Origin: Acidobacteriota bacterium
GTDB taxonomy: Bacteria; Acidobacteriota; Vicinamibacteria; Vicinamibacterales; CAVVIG01
Direction: 5' to 3'
Assembly: GCA_003222395.1 (NCBI GenBank)
Contig: QHWB01000072.1
Span: 1-32,537, forward strand
Length of the DNA: 32,537 bases
The position numbers and the translations under genes are program-made. Below are positions 17,455-25,399 of this stretch, piece after piece (position 1 is the stretch's first letter; the number at the start of each line of letters is the position of its first letter). Below the pieces are notes generated by a model, which was given only the letters and a program-made list of their open reading frames with translations, was not told where the DNA came from and did not search any database.

Positions 17455-17829
17455 ATGCGCTCACTGACCGTCGGCTTCGTGCTGATGCTGGTCACCTCGC
17501 TGACGACGTCGGCGTGGGCCAGCTGCATCGCCGACGCTGCCATGCCGGCGAAGGCGCAAATGGCCTGCTGTAAAGCGGGCCACGACAAGTGCCCGATGCA
17601 TGGGAGTGCAAAGGACTGTTGCAAGACCGAGGGCCAGAAACAGCAGCAACTGAGCGCTGCGACTCACGAAATTGCCCGATCGCCTGTGAACACGCCGGCT
17701 CTGACCGCGACAATCAGTCCTATCGCATTGCCGTCGGCCGTCGTCGCTCGGAACTTCGCTCCTCAGCACGATGTCCTCAAAGGTCCGTCGGCTCCGGCGT
17801 ACCTCCTCATTTCCGCGCTCCTGATCTAG
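17455..17829 (+). CDS. Small Cys-rich secreted protein heading the Cus operon
   Basis: The 124-residue protein has a signal peptide (MRSLTVGFVLMLVTSLTTSA, cleavage likely after WA-S). The mature start holds six cysteines in SCIADAAMP...MACCKAGHDKCPMHGSAKDC and the CCK that follows, with nearby His and Met residues. The rest is a low-complexity Ala/Ser/Pro/Thr tail ending in a hydrophobic stretch (AYLLISALLI). The CC and HxxC/MH spacing suggests metal binding, probably Cu or Ag in the periplasm given the downstream genes; this is inference. No family recognised. ATG at 17455 has a weak site. The CusC-like gene starts 134 bases downstream. Confidence 0.75.
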   Translation: MRSLTVGFVLMLVTSLTTSAWASCIADAAMPAKAQMACCKAGHDKCPMHGSAKDCCKTEGQKQQQLSAATHEIARSPVNTPALTATISPIALPSAVVARNFAPQHDVLKGPSAPAYLLISALLI

Positions 17830-17963: not shown

Positions 17964-19322
17964 ATGCGACGACCAGCAGCCTTCAGTCTTTTCGTCGTTT
18001 CGACGGTTCTGATCGGAATTGCGTCCGCGGCGTCGTCCGGTGCCGCGTCCGGTGTCGAGCCGCTCCAGCGCGACTTCCAACCCTCGAGCGCGCCTCGCTT
18101 GTACGACGGCCCGCCGCTGACACTCGCCGGCGCGATTGAAGAGGCGCTGGCTAAGAACCCTGAGCTGCTGGCCGTTCGCCAGCAGACCGAGGTCGCGCGA
18201 CAGCGGCCGGCTCAGGAGCGTTTCCTGAATGCGCCGATGGCCGACGCGCAGATCTGGCAGTGGCCGCTGAACTCGGTAAATCCCGCGGACACGAACATGT
18301 ACATGTTCATGGTCACGCAGGAGCTGCCTGGTCGTGGCAAACGGCAGCTTCGCGCGACGATTGCCGAAAAGGAGGTCGCACTTGCCGAAAGTGACGTCGC
18401 GATTCGCGCGCGCGACGTCGTGAACCACGTGAAGCAGGCGTACGCGTCGCTGTTCATCGCGCGCAAGGCGGTCGACGTCACTCTGACGAGCGTCGAACTG
18501 CTGCGTGAGATAACAGACGTCTCGCAGACCAAGTACGCGATCGGCCGCATCTCCCAACAAGACGTTCTCAAACCTGTCCTCGAGCTGTCGAGGCTCCACG
18601 GCGACATCCTCACATTCGACGAGCAGGCGAGCGTCGCGGCTGCCAGGCTGAACACCCTGCTCGACCGCGCTCCTGAAACGCCAATTGGGCCACTCGTCGA
18701 GCCGCATGAGGCGGCGCTGCTCCCGGCCTCTTCCGACATGCAGCGCCTCGCCATCGAACGACAACCAGAATTGCAACGCGGACGCATCGAGATTGAGCGT
18801 GCAGAAGCCGAGCTCGTGTCGGTGAAACGGGAACACCAACCCGATTTCACGGTGCAGGGCGGCTACATGCTGATGCCGCATATGACCGACGCGTGGATGG
18901 GGCGGATCGGCGTCACGTGGCCGGACGCCCCGTGGTCGCGCGGCAAGATCGACGCGCGCGTCGCGGAGCGGACCGCGGTTCTGGAGGCAGCGAAGGCGCG
19001 CCAGCGCGGCACCGAAAACGTCGTTCGGCTGAGCGTCCAGGAAGCCTACGCTCGCGCGAAGGGAGCGCTCGACCGCGCCACGTTGCTGAGGACGACGATT
19101 CTGCCGCAGTCACGCCAGACGCTCGACGTCTCGCGCGCGGCCTATCAAACCGATCGCGTTGATTTTCAGGCGCTCATCGACAACGAACGCATCCTCCTCG
19201 ATTCCGAACTGAACTACTACCGCGCATTGAGCGACTTCGAGCAGGCGATGGCCGATCTGGAGCGCGCGGTGGGGATGGATCTCACGGCAGCCAACGCGGT
19301 CGTGACGCGCGAGGTGCAATGA
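17964..19322 (+). CDS. cusC-like: CusC/TolC-type outer-membrane efflux protein
   Basis: The 452-residue outer-membrane exit duct of a tripartite efflux pump. A GGCGGAG lies just before the ATG at 17964. Signal peptide residues 1-22 (RRPAAFSLFVVSTVLIGIAS). Two OEP repeats follow: the first from LTLAGAIEEALAKNPELLAV to about 250, with the barrel turn MYMFMVTQELPGRGKRQLRA; the second with LAIERQPELQRGRIEIERAE and LSVQEAYARAKGALDRATLL. No N-terminal lipobox cysteine is seen, unlike E. coli CusC. Its stop overlaps the next start as ATGA at 19319-19322. Confidence 0.9.
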   Translation: MRRPAAFSLFVVSTVLIGIASAASSGAASGVEPLQRDFQPSSAPRLYDGPPLTLAGAIEEALAKNPELLAVRQQTEVARQRPAQERFLNAPMADAQIWQWPLNSVNPADTNMYMFMVTQELPGRGKRQLRATIAEKEVALAESDVAIRARDVVNHVKQAYASLFIARKAVDVTLTSVELLREITDVSQTKYAIGRISQQDVLKPVLELSRLHGDILTFDEQASVAAARLNTLLDRAPETPIGPLVEPHEAALLPASSDMQRLAIERQPELQRGRIEIERAEAELVSVKREHQPDFTVQGGYMLMPHMTDAWMGRIGVTWPDAPWSRGKIDARVAERTAVLEAAKARQRGTENVVRLSVQEAYARAKGALDRATLLRTTILPQSRQTLDVSRAAYQTDRVDFQALIDNERILLDSELNYYRALSDFEQAMADLERAVGMDLTAANAVVTREVQ

Positions 19323-20818
19323 AGATGCGGCGCATACTTGTGACGTTTCTCGTCGTCGCGGCGGTGCTGACAGCCGCACTCGCGGTCGTCTATGGGCTGC
19401 GCTGGCGCGCCGCGAGGGCGCGGACGACGTCGTCCGAGCCCGCGCAGGCGGCACCGGCACAAGCGCGTGGCGAGGTGACGATCGATCCTCGACGCCAACA
19501 ACTCATCGGCGTCAGAACTGTGCGCGTAGCTCGGATCAGCACGACGCCGCGCCTGCGCACGGTCGGCGTCGTGCGGTACGACGAAACGCGGCTGACCGAC
19601 GTGAATCTGAAGCTCGAAGGGTGGATTCACGATCTCTACGTGAACTACACGGGTCAGTCTGTCAGAAGAGGCCAGCCGCTGTTCACGATCTACAGCCCCG
19701 ATCTCCTCGGTACCGAGAACGAGTATCTCCTCGCACTGAAAACACGTGACCAACTCCAGCAGTCTCAGATTCCAGAAGCGCGAACGCGCGCCGATCAGCT
19801 CGTGGATGCGGCGCGCGAGCGCCTTCGTCTCTGGGATCTTCCAACGGAACAGATCAGAGCGCTCGAACAGACCCGCCAGGCACAGCCGACCGTGACGTTT
19901 CGGTCTCCGACAGACGGCTTCGTGATCGACAAACAGGCGATCGCGGGCATGCATGTCATGCCTGGCCAGAGCTTGTACAAGCTGGTCGACCTGTCGGTGG
20001 TGTGGATCGAGGCCGATGTATACGAGGCGGAGATCGAGCGGATAGCCCTCGGCTCGCCGGCGACGGTCACGATTGAAGCCTATCCGGCTGACCGGTTTCC
20101 CGCTCGCGTCATCTACGTCTATCCGACGATGGACGAGAGAACGCGAACGGTGAAGGTACGTTTCTCGTTGGCAAACCGCGTCGGCCGGCTGAAGCCCGGC
20201 ATGTTTGCCACCGCGGAATTGCGTGGCACCGGTCGTGCCGGCCTGGTCGTCCCGGTTAACGCGGTGCTCGATTCGGGTCCGGAGCAGATCGTGTTCGTCG
20301 CGCAGGGCGACGGGTACTTTGAACCGCGCAAGGTCAAGCTCGGACACCGGCTCGACGACACGATCGAGATTGTCGAAGGACTGAAGGAGGGCGAAGACGT
20401 CGCAACCGGCGCAACGTTCTTCCTCGATTCCGAGAGCCAGCTGCGCGCTTCACTCCAGGGATACGAGGCACTCCCGAATCAATCGGCGGCGCCATCGCAG
20501 CCTGCGAACGTCGACATCACATTTCGCACCATTCCAGATCCGCCGAAGACGGGCGACAACCGGTTCGAGGTCGTCGTGAACGACGCATCCGGTAAACCGA
20601 TCGACGACGCCGATGTGAGTGTGCAGCTCTTCATGCCTGCGATGCCGACGATGAACATGCCGCCGATGCGGAGCGAGACGAAGCTGAATCGGGCCGGCGG
20701 CGGTGCATATCGAGGATCGGGGCAGGTGATGATGGCCGGCCGGTGGGACGTGACAGTCACGGTCGCGCGCGGTGGTCAGCGGCTTGGCGCCAAGCAACTC
20801 CCGGTGCTGGTGCGCTAG
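19319..20818 (+). CDS. cusB-like: CusB-type membrane-fusion protein with C-terminal YtkA-like domain
   Basis: The 499-residue periplasmic adaptor starts at the ATG overlapping the CusC-like stop. After an N-terminal anchor (ILVTFLVVAAVLTAALAVVY, residues 5-24) comes the beta-barrel/lipoyl/alpha-hairpin set: RLTDVNLKLEGWIHDLYVNY, GQSVRRGQPLFTIYSPDLLG, the hairpin with LLALKTRDQLQQSQ, then FRSPTDGFVIDKQAIAGMHV and LKPGMFATAELRG. Residues about 395-499 form an extra Ig-like module of the FixH/YtkA type (GDNRFEVVVNDASGKPIDDA) with a Met-rich loop FMPAMPTMNMPPM. The N-terminal Met sites of E. coli CusB are not seen, so the Met loop may take over metal binding; that is inference. Confidence 0.9.
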   Translation: MKMRRILVTFLVVAAVLTAALAVVYGLRWRAARARTTSSEPAQAAPAQARGEVTIDPRRQQLIGVRTVRVARISTTPRLRTVGVVRYDETRLTDVNLKLEGWIHDLYVNYTGQSVRRGQPLFTIYSPDLLGTENEYLLALKTRDQLQQSQIPEARTRADQLVDAARERLRLWDLPTEQIRALEQTRQAQPTVTFRSPTDGFVIDKQAIAGMHVMPGQSLYKLVDLSVVWIEADVYEAEIERIALGSPATVTIEAYPADRFPARVIYVYPTMDERTRTVKVRFSLANRVGRLKPGMFATAELRGTGRAGLVVPVNAVLDSGPEQIVFVAQGDGYFEPRKVKLGHRLDDTIEIVEGLKEGEDVATGATFFLDSESQLRASLQGYEALPNQSAAPSQPANVDITFRTIPDPPKTGDNRFEVVVNDASGKPIDDADVSVQLFMPAMPTMNMPPMRSETKLNRAGGGAYRGSGQVMMAGRWDVTVTVARGGQRLGAKQLPVLVR

Positions 20819-20904
20819 CGCCTGCGGCCGGCGCGAGCACAGCGATTCGTAGCGAGCGGCGCAGCGCCATCGAGCGGCGGTGGGGCCCCGCGAGGATGCA
20901 AGTG

Positions 20905-23900
20905 ATGATCAACCGAACCATCGATTGGTGCGCGGCGAATCGTTTCGTGGTGTTCACCGGAACCGTCGTGCTGACGGCGTGGGGCATTTGGGCCATGACG
21001 AAGACGCCGCTCGACGCCGTCCCGGACATTTCGGATGTCCAGGTCATCGTCTCGACCGAGTGGATCGGCCGCAGCCCCGATCTCATCGAGGATCAGATCA
21101 CCTACCCGATCGTCACGGCTCTCATCTCGACCCCGCGCGTCAAAGCGGTCCGCGGCTTCACCGATTTCGGCATTTCGTACGTCTACGTCATCTTCGAGGA
21201 CGGCACCGACATGTACTGGGCGCGGAGCCGCGTCGTCGAGTACCTGCAGGGGATTCGAGGACAACTGCCGGAGGAGGTCAACCCTGCCATCGGTCCGGAT
21301 GCGACCGGTGTGGGCTGGATCTTCGAGTACGCGCTCCTGGACGAAAGCGGTCGGCACACCCTCGCGGAGCTCCGCAGCTTCCAGGACTGGCATCTCCGCT
21401 ACTGGCTCGCAGCCGTGCCTGGCGTCGCAGAGGTCGCAAGCATCGGCGGCTTCGTCAAGCAGTACCAGGTGAACCTCGATCCGAACAAGCTGGCCGCCTA
21501 CAACGTCGGCGTCAAAGACGTCGTCAACGCCATCAAGATGAGCAACAACGACGTCGAAGGGCGGCTCCTGGAGTTTTCCGGGCGCGAGTACATGGTTCGT
21601 GGTCGCGGCTATTTGACCTCTATCGCCGACCTCGAGAAGGTGTCGTTGGGCGCCGACCTGCGTGGCACGCCGATTCGTGTGCGGGACGTTGCGCAGGTCC
21701 GGCTGGGACCGGACATCCGGCGAGGCGTTGCGGACCTCGATGGCAGAGGCGAAGTCGTCGGCGGCATCGTCGTGATGCGTTTTGGCGAGAACGCCTTGAA
21801 TGTCATCGAGCGCGTGAAGGCGAAGCTGAACGAGGTTCGGCAGTCGATGCCTGCGGGTATGAAAGTCGTACCGACCTACGATCGATCCGGGCTCATCGGT
21901 CAATCGATCACCACGTTGCGCCGAACGCTCATCGAAGAGGCGATCGCCGTCTCGATCGTCATCATCATCTTCCTGTTCCACTTCCGCTCGGCGCTGATTC
22001 CAATTCTGGCGCTGCCGATTGCCGTGCTCGCGTCGTTCATCCCGATGCACTACCTCGGCGTGACGTCGAACATCATGTCATTGGGCGGGTTGGCGCTGGC
22101 CATCGGCGTGCTCGTCGACGCATCGATCGTGATGGTGGAAAACGCCTACCGACACGTGTCGGAAGGCGAGCATACGCTGGACGCACCGACAGCGTCTAAC
22201 AGCGCCAGCAGCGAATCGCGCACGGTTCCCCATGACGAGCAGCCACGCCGGATCATCCGAGCCGCGAAGCAAGTCGCGCGCGCGATTTTCTTTTCACTGG
22301 CGATCATCGTCGTCTCGTTCGTGCCGGTTTTTCTGCTGGAGGCACAGGAAGGTCGGATGTTCCGGCCGCTGGCCTTCACCAAAACGTTCGCGATGGTCGC
22401 CGCGTCGATTCTGTCCATCACGCTCGTGCCGGTGCTGATGACGATGTTCATCCGCGGCAAGCGGTTGAAGCCGGAAGCACGGAATCCGGTGTCGCGCTTC
22501 TTCAGCGCAATCTATGCGCCCGTCATTCGACTTGCGCTGCAATGGAAATGGATGGCGCTCCTGCTCAACTTCGCCGTCGTGCCGTTGACGATTCCGCTGC
22601 TGTTCATGATCGGCAGCGAGTTCATGCCGCCGCTCTATGAAGGATCGCAGCTCTACATGCCGACTTCGCCGCCCGGACTGTCGATAACCGAGGCAACCCG
22701 GCTGCTGCAGGTCCAGGACAAGATGCTCCGGACATTTCCCGAAGTGGAAACCGTGTTCGGAACGGTCGGCCGCGGGACGACGCCGACCGACAACACGCCG
22801 ATGGGGATGGTGAACACCACCGTGACGTTGAAACCGCGCGAGCAGTGGCGGGCGGGCATGACGCTCGAGAAGCTTCAGACTGCGATGGACGCCGACCTGC
22901 AGTTTCCAGGGTTTCCGAACGTCTGGACCCAGCCGATTCGCAATCGTCTCGACATGCTGCTCACAGGGATCAAGACGCCTGTCGGCATCAAGATCCTCGG
23001 ATCCGACCTGAATGAGATTCAGCGCATTGGCGGCGACATCGAACGGATTCTTCAGAAGAGTCCAGGCACGCGGAGTGTGTTTGCGGAACGGGTCGCGCAA
23101 GGCTATTTCACCGACATCCGCATCGATCGCGAGGCAATCGCCAGATACGGATTGACGATCGGTGACGTCCAGGACGTAATCGAATCGGCAATCGGCGGGC
23201 AGAACATCACGCGCACGATCGAGGGGCGCGAGCGATATCCGGTGAACGTTCGGTACGCGCGCGGATTCCGTGACAGTCTTCCCGAGCTCGAACGCGTGCT
23301 GGTGAAAACGCCAACGCGTGCGCAGATTCCACTTGGGCAGCTCGCCGCGATCACGTTGACGCCTGGACCGGCGATGATTCGCGACGAAAACGGTCAGCTC
23401 GCCGGATATGTGTACATCGACACCGCCACGAGCGACATCGGCGGGTACGTCGACCAGGCCAAGCGCGCGATCGCGCAGTCGCTGAAGCTGCCAGCCGGTT
23501 ACACGCTGTTCTGGACCGGCCAGTACGAATTCCAGGTTCGCGCGCGCGAGCGGCTGAGACTGCTCATCCCACTCGTGTTCTTCATCATCTTCATGCTGCT
23601 GTACATGACGTTCCACTCGGCGTCCGAGGCAACGGTCGTCATGCTGTCCGTGGTGTACGCAATGACCGGCGGCGTCATCCTGCAATGGCTGCTTGGCTAT
23701 AACTTTTCCGTCGCCGTGTGGGTGGGCTACATCGCGCTGTACGGTGTCGCGGTTCAGACTGGCGTGGTGATGGTGGTCTACCTGCACGAAGCGCTCGATA
23801 GACGCCTTCGGCAGGGCGGCGAGATGACGGAACGCGACGTGCGCGAGGCGACGATTGCCGGGTCTGTGCTTCGGCTCCGCCCGAAGCTGATGACGGTGAG

Positions 23901-24111
23901 CGTCGTCATGGCCGGCCTCGTGCCGATCCTGTGGAGCACAGGCGTCGGTTCCGACATCATGAAGCCAATCGCCGCGCCGATCGTCGGCGGGATGATCACC
24001 TCGACGATTCATGTCCTCGTCATCACGCCGGTGATCTTCTGTCTCATGAAATCGCGCGCGTTACGGCGTGGCACGCTCCGCGCATCGGGGATGCATCTGG
24101 GAGGTGAATGA
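20905..24111 (+). CDS. cusA-like: CusA-type Cu(I)/Ag(I) RND efflux pump
   Basis: The 1068-residue inner-membrane proton-driven pump. The ATG at 20905 (GAGG 9 bases upstream) is preferred over the ATG at 20896; with it the proton-relay aspartate falls at position 405 (GLALAIGVLVDASIVMVENA), as in E. coli CusA. The methionine triad is complete: Met585 (LYMPTSPPG), Met635 (TPMGMVNTTV) and Met684 (NRLDMLLTGIK), equal to CusA Met573/623/672 plus 12. The shift is explained by a short polar insert near residues 425-440 (TASNSASSESRTVP). Twelve membrane helices, and FMPPLYEG as in the family. Substrate is therefore monovalent copper or silver with good confidence. 86 bases separate it from the CusB-like gene. 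Confidence 0.97.
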   Translation: MINRTIDWCAANRFVVFTGTVVLTAWGIWAMTKTPLDAVPDISDVQVIVSTEWIGRSPDLIEDQITYPIVTALISTPRVKAVRGFTDFGISYVYVIFEDGTDMYWARSRVVEYLQGIRGQLPEEVNPAIGPDATGVGWIFEYALLDESGRHTLAELRSFQDWHLRYWLAAVPGVAEVASIGGFVKQYQVNLDPNKLAAYNVGVKDVVNAIKMSNNDVEGRLLEFSGREYMVRGRGYLTSIADLEKVSLGADLRGTPIRVRDVAQVRLGPDIRRGVADLDGRGEVVGGIVVMRFGENALNVIERVKAKLNEVRQSMPAGMKVVPTYDRSGLIGQSITTLRRTLIEEAIAVSIVIIIFLFHFRSALIPILALPIAVLASFIPMHYLGVTSNIMSLGGLALAIGVLVDASIVMVENAYRHVSEGEHTLDAPTASNSASSESRTVPHDEQPRRIIRAAKQVARAIFFSLAIIVVSFVPVFLLEAQEGRMFRPLAFTKTFAMVAASILSITLVPVLMTMFIRGKRLKPEARNPVSRFFSAIYAPVIRLALQWKWMALLLNFAVVPLTIPLLFMIGSEFMPPLYEGSQLYMPTSPPGLSITEATRLLQVQDKMLRTFPEVETVFGTVGRGTTPTDNTPMGMVNTTVTLKPREQWRAGMTLEKLQTAMDADLQFPGFPNVWTQPIRNRLDMLLTGIKTPVGIKILGSDLNEIQRIGGDIERILQKSPGTRSVFAERVAQGYFTDIRIDREAIARYGLTIGDVQDVIESAIGGQNITRTIEGRERYPVNVRYARGFRDSLPELERVLVKTPTRAQIPLGQLAAITLTPGPAMIRDENGQLAGYVYIDTATSDIGGYVDQAKRAIAQSLKLPAGYTLFWTGQYEFQVRARERLRLLIPLVFFIIFMLLYMTFHSASEATVVMLSVVYAMTGGVILQWLLGYNFSVAVWVGYIALYGVAVQTGVVMVVYLHEALDRRLRQGGEMTERDVREATIAGSVLRLRPKLMTVSVVMAGLVPILWSTGVGSDIMKPIAAPIVGGMITSTIHVLVITPVIFCLMKSRALRRGTLRASGMHLGGE

Positions 24112-24224
24112 TGAATTGCGCGATGTGCGGAACCTGGATGGGTCTCGGCACGCTGATCGGCGTGCTCGTGGTCGTGCTCCTCGTCATCGTGATTTGGCGG
24201 CTGCTCAGCCAGTCGCGTCAGTAG
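24111..24224 (+). CDS. Tiny CxxC membrane peptide in the Cus operon (37 aa)
   Basis: ATG at 24111 shares its first base with the TGA of the pump gene, and GGGAGGTGA lies directly upstream; an ATG at 24108 would add one Met. The product is MNCAMCGTWMGLGTLIGVLV then VVLLVIVIWRLLSQSRQ: a short N-terminus with a CxxC and three Met residues, then one membrane helix of about 20 residues and a basic end. Topology would leave the CxxC on one side of the inner membrane next to the pump. It is too short for routine gene callers. A metal-relay or pump-subunit role is inference from position and the Cys/Met residues. Confidence 0.75.
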   Translation: MNCAMCGTWMGLGTLIGVLVVVLLVIVIWRLLSQSRQ

Positions 24225-24229
24225 CGCCC

Positions 24230-25399
24230 GTGTTCCTGATTCACGCGCTCTCGATGGCCTTCGCGATGTTCTGGGAGATCCTCTGGGCGCTCATCCTCGG
24301 CTTTGCGCTTTCCGGCGTCGTGCAAGCGGTCGTCTCGAAGACGGAGATGAGCCGTCTTCTGCCGGACGATTCGCCGCGGACGTTGGCCATCGCGTGCGGC
24401 CTCGGCGCCGCCTCGTCGTCCTGTTCCTACGCCGCGGTGGCACTCGCGCGGTCGATCTTCAGAAAGGGCGCGAGCTTCACCGCCGCGATCGTCTTCGAGC
24501 TCGCGTCGACGAATCTGGTTCTCGAGCTCGGGATCATCATGATCGTCCTGCTCGGCTGGCAGTTCGCGCTCGCTGAATTCATTGGCGCGCCGATCATGGT
24601 CGTGATCCTCGTCTGGTTGTTTGGACGCTTTCTGTCGGAGCGGATGGTTGAAACGGCGCGACAGCAGGCGGAAAAAGGACTCGCCGGATCAATGGAAGGA
24701 CATGCCGAAATGGACATGTCTGTGACCGGCGGGTCGCTGTGGTCGCGGGTCACCTCCGCGAAGGGGTTCACAGCGATCAGTCATTACTTCCTGATGGACT
24801 GGGCGGCAGTGTGGCGCGATGTGGCCGGCGGTCTGCTGATTGCGGGCGCGCTGGCAACTTGGGTCCCCAAGGGATTCTGGCGGTCGTTCTTCTTCACCGG
24901 TCACCCGACCTTCGCGCTGGTCTGGGGACCGCTGGTCGGTCCGCTTGTCGCGGTCATCTCATTTGTCTGCTCGGTCGGGAACGTGCCGCTCGCCGCGGTG
25001 CTGTGGAACAGCGGCATCAGCTTCGGCGGCGTGATTGCGTTCATTTTCGCTGACCTGATTGTCATTCCGATCATCGACATCTATCGACGCTACTACACGG
25101 CGCCGATCGCGTGGTTCCTGACGTGGACGATGTTCGTCGCCATGTCGGTCGCGGGGCTCGCTGTCGAAATGCTGTTCAAAACCGTCGGCTGGGTCCCGAT
25201 CGAGCGTGCCGCAACGATCACGGAAGCGCATGTTGAGTGGAACTACACGACGGTTCTGAACGTTGTGTTTCTCGCTCTCGCGGCGATTCTGGTATGGCGG
25301 GCGGCGACCACTGGCGGCTTCGGAATGCTCCGCATGATGAACATGTCGCCGCAAACGCAGGGAGGTCGCCACCACAATCGTCCGAGGCATATTCACTGA
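24230..25399 (+). CDS. ArsP/DUF318-type permease
   Basis: A 389-residue membrane protein of the permease family (PF03773 type), starting at a GTG five bases after the preceding stop; no own ribosome site, so coupled translation is likely. About 9-10 hydrophobic helices. The first half holds the family hallmark ACGLGAASSSCSYAAVALAR, with Cys in SSSCS; the second half has SFVCSVGNVPLAAVLWNSGI and AFIFADLIVIPIIDIYRRYY. A central polar loop (about 145-165) carries EGHAEMDMS. Members export organoarsenicals or, in SO_0444-like proteins, Cu/Zn. The Cus context favours metal efflux. It ends with a His-rich tail (GGRHHNRPRHIH), a further possible metal site. Confidence 0.85.
   Translation: MFLIHALSMAFAMFWEILWALILGFALSGVVQAVVSKTEMSRLLPDDSPRTLAIACGLGAASSSCSYAAVALARSIFRKGASFTAAIVFELASTNLVLELGIIMIVLLGWQFALAEFIGAPIMVVILVWLFGRFLSERMVETARQQAEKGLAGSMEGHAEMDMSVTGGSLWSRVTSAKGFTAISHYFLMDWAAVWRDVAGGLLIAGALATWVPKGFWRSFFFTGHPTFALVWGPLVGPLVAVISFVCSVGNVPLAAVLWNSGISFGGVIAFIFADLIVIPIIDIYRRYYTAPIAWFLTWTMFVAMSVAGLAVEMLFKTVGWVPIERAATITEAHVEWNYTTVLNVVFLALAAILVWRAATTGGFGMLRMMNMSPQTQGGRHHNRPRHIH

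Follow-up and report, generated by a model that had tools for sequence, protein, structure and literature searches.

What is the short reading frame between a heavy-metal RND pump gene and a permease gene in this Acidobacteriota contig, and what could a membrane peptide of 37 residues do there? In the window, that is, the whole stretch of 32,537 nucleotides that was analysed, the gene order is cusC-cusB-cusA-peptide-permease (Table 1), and the frame translates as MNCAMCGTWMGLGTLIGVLVVVLLVIVIWRLLSQSRQ.

Table 1. Positions of the peptide, its start signals and the neighbouring genes in the window.
Feature	Position	Strand	Remarks
Outer-membrane efflux protein, CusC position	17964..19322	+	PF02321
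CusB-type adaptor with C-terminal YtkA domain	19319..20818	+	Pfam/NCBIfam matches
CusA/CzcA-type heavy-metal RND pump	20896..24111	+	TIGR00914, 1120 bits; PF00873
GGAGG Shine-Dalgarno of the peptide	24100..24104	+	Within the cusA 3' end; read from the sequence
cusA TGA stop, overlapping the ATGATG start of the peptide	24109..24111	+	Base 24111 common to both
37-aa single-helix Met/Cys membrane peptide	24111..24224	+	Alternative in-frame start ATG 24108
ArsP_1 permease	24230..25399	+	PF03773, 218 bits; GTG start

The preliminary description of the locus had pointed to a good ribosome site, to a base shared with the stop codon of the pump gene and to a single membrane helix, and our analysis bore out all three, together with the frame and its length. 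The GGAGG lies 6 nt ahead of ATG 24111 and 3 nt ahead of the in-frame ATG 24108; because of this spacing, 24111 is the likelier start. The predicted structure is one helix from residue 5 to 36, with pLDDT of at least 90 over 19 of 38 residues and of about 60 over the first ten. The frame of the pump opens at 20743, and its probable start is the one given in the table. On the other side, 5 nt separate the peptide stop from the permease GTG. Since no Shine-Dalgarno was seen on inspection of that start region, translation of the permease is probably coupled to that of the peptide. The permease itself scored 57 bits against the SO_0444 Cu/Zn model, whose cut-off is 300, and was far under the SaoE cut-off as well.

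Two further frames lie upstream of the cus cluster of the window. One encodes an Nramp-family transporter (PF01566, 16022-17317). The other, before cusC (17455-17829), is a frame of 124 residues, Cys/Met-rich, with a hydrophobic start and without a Pfam match, which may be a candidate nascent copper sensor of the CutF type. A similar-looking frame stands ahead of the outer-membrane protein gene in another locus (L158, 1484-1834).

Relatives of the peptide were sought beside the permease and by sequence (below, G numbers denote genomes and L numbers loci). We collected 80 permease relatives from genome contigs and scanned 61 of them over 350 bases upstream (5 had less than 350). A Met-rich hydrophobic short frame stood upstream of the permease at two of these 61 loci: in Verrucomicrobiota the order was cusB-cusA-MMMCPMWMMWIWGIFGILLIVLLIVVIVKLLKK-permease (L023), and in Acidobacteriota the frame begins MQGMQGMMGGMMAHMWIW (L017). 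When 297 genomes of the phylum were searched with the single peptide, 11 matched at E ≤ 0.1, the window being one of them. Among the other ten, L003 and L007 are members; it was this search that led to G254 and, in G042, to a second copy beside a truncated permease. With a five-member profile, 112 of 396 genomes of the window's phylum matched at E ≤ 1, but the count fell to 7 genomes, with 8 loci, at E ≤ 1e-5. Four of the eight had supplied rows of the profile, and the new ones were G029, G296, G026 and G153. Further profiles matched 3 of the 18 genomes of the permease loci at E ≤ 0.01, 7 of 240 genomes in a sample of the phylum of G516 at E ≤ 1e-3 (4 of these at E ≤ 1e-5), and 12 of 213 in the order of G516 at E ≤ 0.01. 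Three of those 12 had supplied profile rows (G516, G521, and G526), and the best among the other nine was G938 (6.8e-15). The window's own order gave 3 of 162 genomes, the window counted in. Altogether, 24 loci in 22 genomes of Acidobacteriota and Verrucomicrobiota reached E ≤ 1e-5, one of them doubtful (G663, whose frame is without a good start).

Several controls bear on these matches. The reversed profile, run over the order of G516, matched 2 of 210 genomes, with a best E of 0.0066. A profile built from just the two members found by position ranked the window 14th (E = 0.0017) among 24,819 frames, a background that comes from loci already collected, many of them via profile matches, and not from whole genomes. 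The 13 frames above the window were other members, two being the training sequences, and the best sixteen of the 24,819 frames were all members or copies of members, the 15th being a shortened copy (L065). With a profile of all members minus the window, the window was recovered at E = 1.2e-5 and rank 17. In the same type of test, a frame that lies 2.5 kb ahead of a permease in an alphaproteobacterial locus (L022) scored 7.8e-6, and with it the family may reach into a third phylum. The permease is present in 114 plasmid records; tblastn of two peptides against the plasmid collection gave no match, which is uninformative since low-complexity filtering was on.

Neither the window peptide nor the three relatives scanned with it reached a Pfam or NCBIfam cut-off, and the 38-residue form matched no Pfam family at E ≤ 0.01. 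The best NCBIfam match of the window, PA2779_fam (E = 0.0068), scored 16.5 bits where the cut-off is 40. Membership of a known family was rejected, as these four sequences gave only matches below the cut-offs. Against PDB sequences, the profile gave three matches with E from 0.47 to 0.98 (TatA, LmrP). The family looks like a group of one-helix membrane proteins that has no database name and spans at least two bacterial phyla. Since short hydrophobic sequences can come to resemble one another by convergence, its members need not share one origin.

Is the frame a gene or a product of chance? Under a first-order Markov null derived from positions 24108-24229, the chance of an open frame of this length was 0.45. 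Frames that were open and equally hydrophobic came up in 1 of 100,000 trials, and in none of 100,000 when at least five Met/Cys in the first 11 residues were added. The G+C contents at the three codon positions resemble each other, with 0.59/0.41/0.86 in the peptide, 0.61/0.43/0.81 in cusA and 0.58/0.47/0.80 in the permease. Among relatives, synonymous changes are, per site, more frequent than amino-acid changes: pS/pN was 0.38/0.07, 0.34/0.06 and 0.23/0.05 in three Verrucomicrobiota pairs (one trio, hence not independent), 0.12/0.03 between the two G042 copies, and 0.76/0.21 and 0.58/0.16 in two wider pairs. The ratio is thus 3.6-5.5 in the four close pairs and 3.6 in the two wider ones, from small counts of 6 to 30 changes per pair. 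Ribosome sites such as AAAGGAG or GGAGG can be read before many members of the family, and not clearly before L155 and L129. A chance frame was rejected on the Markov null, the excess of pS over pN and the reversed-profile control, and we regard 24111-24224 as almost certainly a real gene, judging from these sequence statistics.

The build of the peptide is well kept across the family. At least three Met/Cys residues (the start Met counted) precede the helix at 21 of the 24 loci, the window included, the others being G917 (25 residues, 1 Met), G897 (start unclear) and G663. The net charge of the N-terminus lies between -1 and +1 at 23 loci, G663 being the exception with +2, and the tail is net positive (+1 to +3) at all 24. 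By the positive-inside rule, a basic tail is cytoplasmic and the N-terminus periplasmic. Because the N-terminus is near-neutral and the tail basic, we infer an N-out/C-in topology.

The CxxC of the window fared differently. The preliminary description had given its loss in relatives as a finding that would count against its reading, and it is indeed absent from them: among the 24 loci, an N-terminal CxxC occurs in the window alone. The 23 others have C-x-M or a Met-only N-terminus in its place, with few Met in G663, G897, and G917. Six sequences carry C-x-M (the window, G516, both loci of G526, G520, and G938), whose associated genes encode CusA, the permease or a CDF exporter. An N-terminal Cys without C-x-M is found in G933, and the remaining loci are without N-terminal Cys. 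A redox or metallothiol role of the CxxC was rejected, the motif being private to the window, and on the sequences compared it is a local variant of the Met/Cys cluster. At G930, near a contig end, the frame runs past the basic tail into CGDC. At L157, the ATPase next to the peptide carries CPM too, within its HMBD heavy-metal domain (YTCPMHP).

Where do the relatives sit? The preliminary description had proposed to look for the same short frame after cusA in related genomes, and there it was: in five genomes, namely the window, G526, G908, G917, and G516, no other frame comes between cusA and the peptide. Three of them (the window, G526, and G908) share the ATGA overlap, in which the cusA TGA runs into the ATGATG of the peptide; the distance from the cusA stop is 22 nt in G917 and 87 nt in G516. 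A sixth case, G897, is less clean, with an open frame that begins 67 nt past the cusA stop. Here cusA and the peptide are separated by a further short hydrophobic frame (L200:2853-3019), which carries a ribosome site of its own and overlaps the peptide. In G938, a Met-rich protein of 134 residues separates cusA from the peptide; it has a C-terminal helix and no convincing Pfam family (L195:5058-5462). At G914, cusA is 1.55 kb upstream of the peptide, and at G026 the peptide lies between a divergent CsoR-type repressor and a cluster of outer-membrane protein, cusB and cusA genes.

Other exporters accompany the peptide elsewhere. It adjoins a P-type ATPase in G296 and G695. In G452, the upstream side has a YHS frame at 63 nt and an ATPase at 2.0 kb. 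The second G938 copy directly follows a CDF exporter (PF01545). In G933, the peptide comes right after a frame of 238 residues, by eye similar to that exporter, and a P-type ATPase lies about 0.7 kb upstream. The permease is adjacent in the window, G516, and G042 (two copies, one with the permease truncated), and the peptide comes just after a permease in G521, G520, and the second G526 locus. The G042 peptide precedes the permease in a region that carries CsoR, zf_CopZ and HMA proteins. At the first G526 locus, the long frames that follow are on the other strand. Of the weaker members that are not among the 24, G002 has a YHS protein close by and G095 has merA/merC.

A gene for metal export or handling is adjacent or within about 2.1 kb at 16 of the 24 loci, with 3 weak cases and 5 without one. 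The 16 clear loci are the window (G000), the first G042 copy, G296, G026, G452, G695, G516, G521, G526, both G938 copies, G933, G914, G908, G897, and G917. The weak ones are the second G042 copy (a permease stub by eye), G153 (YHS, 4e-7) and G725 (a short ATPase piece, 8e-8). No metal neighbour was identified at G254, G029, G663, G849, and G930, of which G029 and G930 are at contig ends; a distant RND operon lies 1 kb downstream of the G849 peptide. In a marker test over 1.5 kb that left self markers out of account, a marker was present for 8 of 14 members and for 4 of 25 decoys, where the members took in G002 and G095 and the decoys took in L170, which is G663, one of the 24. Three of these decoys scored via distant or short RND matches and L170 via an oxidoreductase.

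Some observations on these clusters stand apart. In G520 and the second G526 locus (L020:1181, L065:6152), the frame is lost after the helix, which suggests decaying genes or assembly errors. Two Verrucomicrobiota cus clusters have a CCC-rich frame of 66-67 residues and one of 82 residues after the peptide (L195:5683-6165, L201:3434-3915); the latter is Thioredoxin_3 in L195, and its L201 counterpart is similar by eye. In the window, the YtkA domain closes CusB (residues 396-480), while in G938 it is CusA that ends with it (L195:4508-4993; PF13115, 5e-14); different pump subunits thus carry one and the same domain.

The peptide is rare among genomes with such pumps. The CusA C-terminus had a match at E ≤ 1e-20 in 261 of 297 phylum genomes, distant RND pumps counted. 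The peptide was found at E ≤ 1e-5 in 7 of 396, and of the 8 loci solely that of the window directly follows cusA. No peptide match at E ≤ 1e-5 was obtained in genomes with close CusA relatives in the phylum (for example G088, G116, and G028), and absence from CusA genomes rests on the whole-genome profile search. Because most genomes with such pumps are without it, the peptide is, by this count, dispensable. A permease at E ≤ 1e-50 is present in 2 of 162 genomes of the window's order, one of them a fragment. Given this rarity, the peptide-permease pair looks like an acquired module in the lineage of the window. One locus has cusA and the permease without the peptide (L048). In G404, from the same order, cusA is followed by permease residues 216-364 only (L164:5700-6330); this remnant is without the peptide and about the first 215 permease residues, and is silent on selection.

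We suggest, with a probability of about 0.5, that the peptide is a tethered periplasmic ligand for soft metals that serves the adjoining exporters. It would be a tiny N-out/C-in protein of the inner membrane, with the Met/Cys N-terminus on the periplasmic face, one helix across the membrane and an Arg/Lys tail in the cytoplasm. It would bind Cu(I), and perhaps Ag(I) or Hg(II), keep the metal at the periplasmic membrane surface, concentrating it there, and pass it to the exporter that is produced along with the peptide, which in the window would be CusA, the ArsP_1 permease or both. Residue type and context point to metal binding, and context and the variable partner are consistent with a hand-off. 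As the partner varies while the plan of the peptide stays, its interaction would be with the metal and not with one pump. CusA is reported to transport metal by means of methionines. Fitness data on SO_0444 link the permease family to Cu/Zn efflux, as far as the excerpted text of PMC3219624 goes. Tentatively, and at somewhat less than even odds, the whole family might be a membrane metal ferry independent of its partner: one family of N-out peptides of 25-45 residues with Met or C-x-M ligands, which works for no fewer than four unrelated kinds of exporter (RND, P-type ATPase, ArsP_1 permease, and CDF) and travels, as a compact module, from the metal-resistance operons of one phylum to those of another.

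The preliminary description had left the choice between a pump partner and a metal relay. A relay or accessory role fits the data better; a dedicated subunit of the AcrZ type, whose helix would pack on CusA and tune the pump with the N-terminal Met/Cys mattering little, has become weaker, because the partners differ (permease, P-type ATPase, and CDF). Such a subunit would suit the direct succession of cusA and peptide in five genomes, six with G897, three of them with the ATGA overlap, and a commentary allows, in the portion cited, that further factors may act on CusBCA as AcrZ does (PMC8262934). However, relatives stand by unrelated exporters, that is, by P-type ATPases (G296, G695), the permease (G042, G521) and a CDF exporter (second G938 copy), no Pfam family matched at E ≤ 0.01, and no AcrZ chain was among the three PDB sequence matches up to E = 1; we consider this explanation unlikely. 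The adjacencies in the window, G516, and G042, and the position directly after the permease in G521, G520, and the second G526 locus, would also suit a protein needed for the assembly or stability of the permease, or of whatever multi-helix exporter stands beside it, and not for metal binding. Most permease loci are nevertheless without the peptide (a Met-rich frame upstream in 2 of 61, and none in L048), and no permease was identified beside the ATPase-linked peptides of G296 and G695, so that we hold such a partner for distinctly improbable.

Could the act of translation matter more than its product? The frame might be a coupler or leader that loads ribosomes onto the permease gene, perhaps a nascent-chain copper sensor like CutF, and the missing Shine-Dalgarno before GTG 24230, with the peptide stop 5 nt off, is what such a leader would show. 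CutF is a precedent for copper-dependent control via a nascent exported protein, according to the part of PMC9973294 consulted. Against this, pS is well over pN among relatives, the long frames after the peptide at the first G526 locus are on the opposite strand, proline is absent from the 37 residues, and the RNA of 24105-24275 has an ordinary fold (z = 0.55); we give the coupler little credence. On the same fold energy, an attenuator or structured RNA was rejected. Small membrane toxins are typically short and have a single helix. The peptide shares this length and build, and a toxin or a chance hydrophobic frame unrelated to metal would thus be conceivable, except that the recurrent metal-exporter context, the ribosome sites and the reversed-profile control speak against it and make it very improbable.

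Taking up again the membrane-tethered metal ligand, we compared it with small proteins that are already known. No description of the peptide was found in the titles and abstract starts of open-licence PMC literature. A weak profile match (L146, E 0.03-0.05) has an N-terminal Met/aromatic helix and is presumably a SHOCT-type small protein; proteins of that type are longer with a Met-rich helix, whereas the peptide family ends right after the helix. Small membrane partners exist for drug RND pumps, and none was found described for metal pumps in the open-licence PMC literature. An AcrZ model exists in Pfam-A.

CutF is a DUF2946-like nascent copper sensor whose translation is needed for the next gene, in the passages seen of PMC9973294, and it resembles the peptide as a short Cys-containing exported product ahead of copper genes. 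The window differs in having neither an unusual fold, such as a stem-loop over the next ribosome site, nor a proline-rich C-terminus, and the first G526 locus is without a long same-strand frame after the peptide. CusF and CusD are also alike in part, being Met-containing copper ligands encoded with CusCBA (PMC10304878, as excerpted). CusF, however, is periplasmic and CusD is a membrane-attached TAT lipoprotein with longer metal motifs, according to the same excerpt, whereas the window peptide is 37 residues and mostly one helix.

AcrZ, the small membrane partner of the AcrB RND pump, with 49 residues in E. coli (PMC8262934 and PMC10903887, both in part), is the nearest in kind, as a small membrane protein tied to an RND pump, yet the peptide lacks the features of AcrZ membership that were tested. 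It has no Pfam match, and its neighbour is of the CusA/CzcA type (TIGR00914) and not an AcrB-type drug pump. Besides, the peptide has a Met/Cys N-terminus, a gene that overlaps the pump gene, a heavy-metal pump beside it and relatives by exporters other than RND pumps. If these frames are absent from annotations, gene catalogues miss a recurrent component of metal-export operons. For the extra factors of CusA considered possible in the cited portion of PMC8262934, the family offers concrete candidates in 22 genomes, and the question becomes testable.
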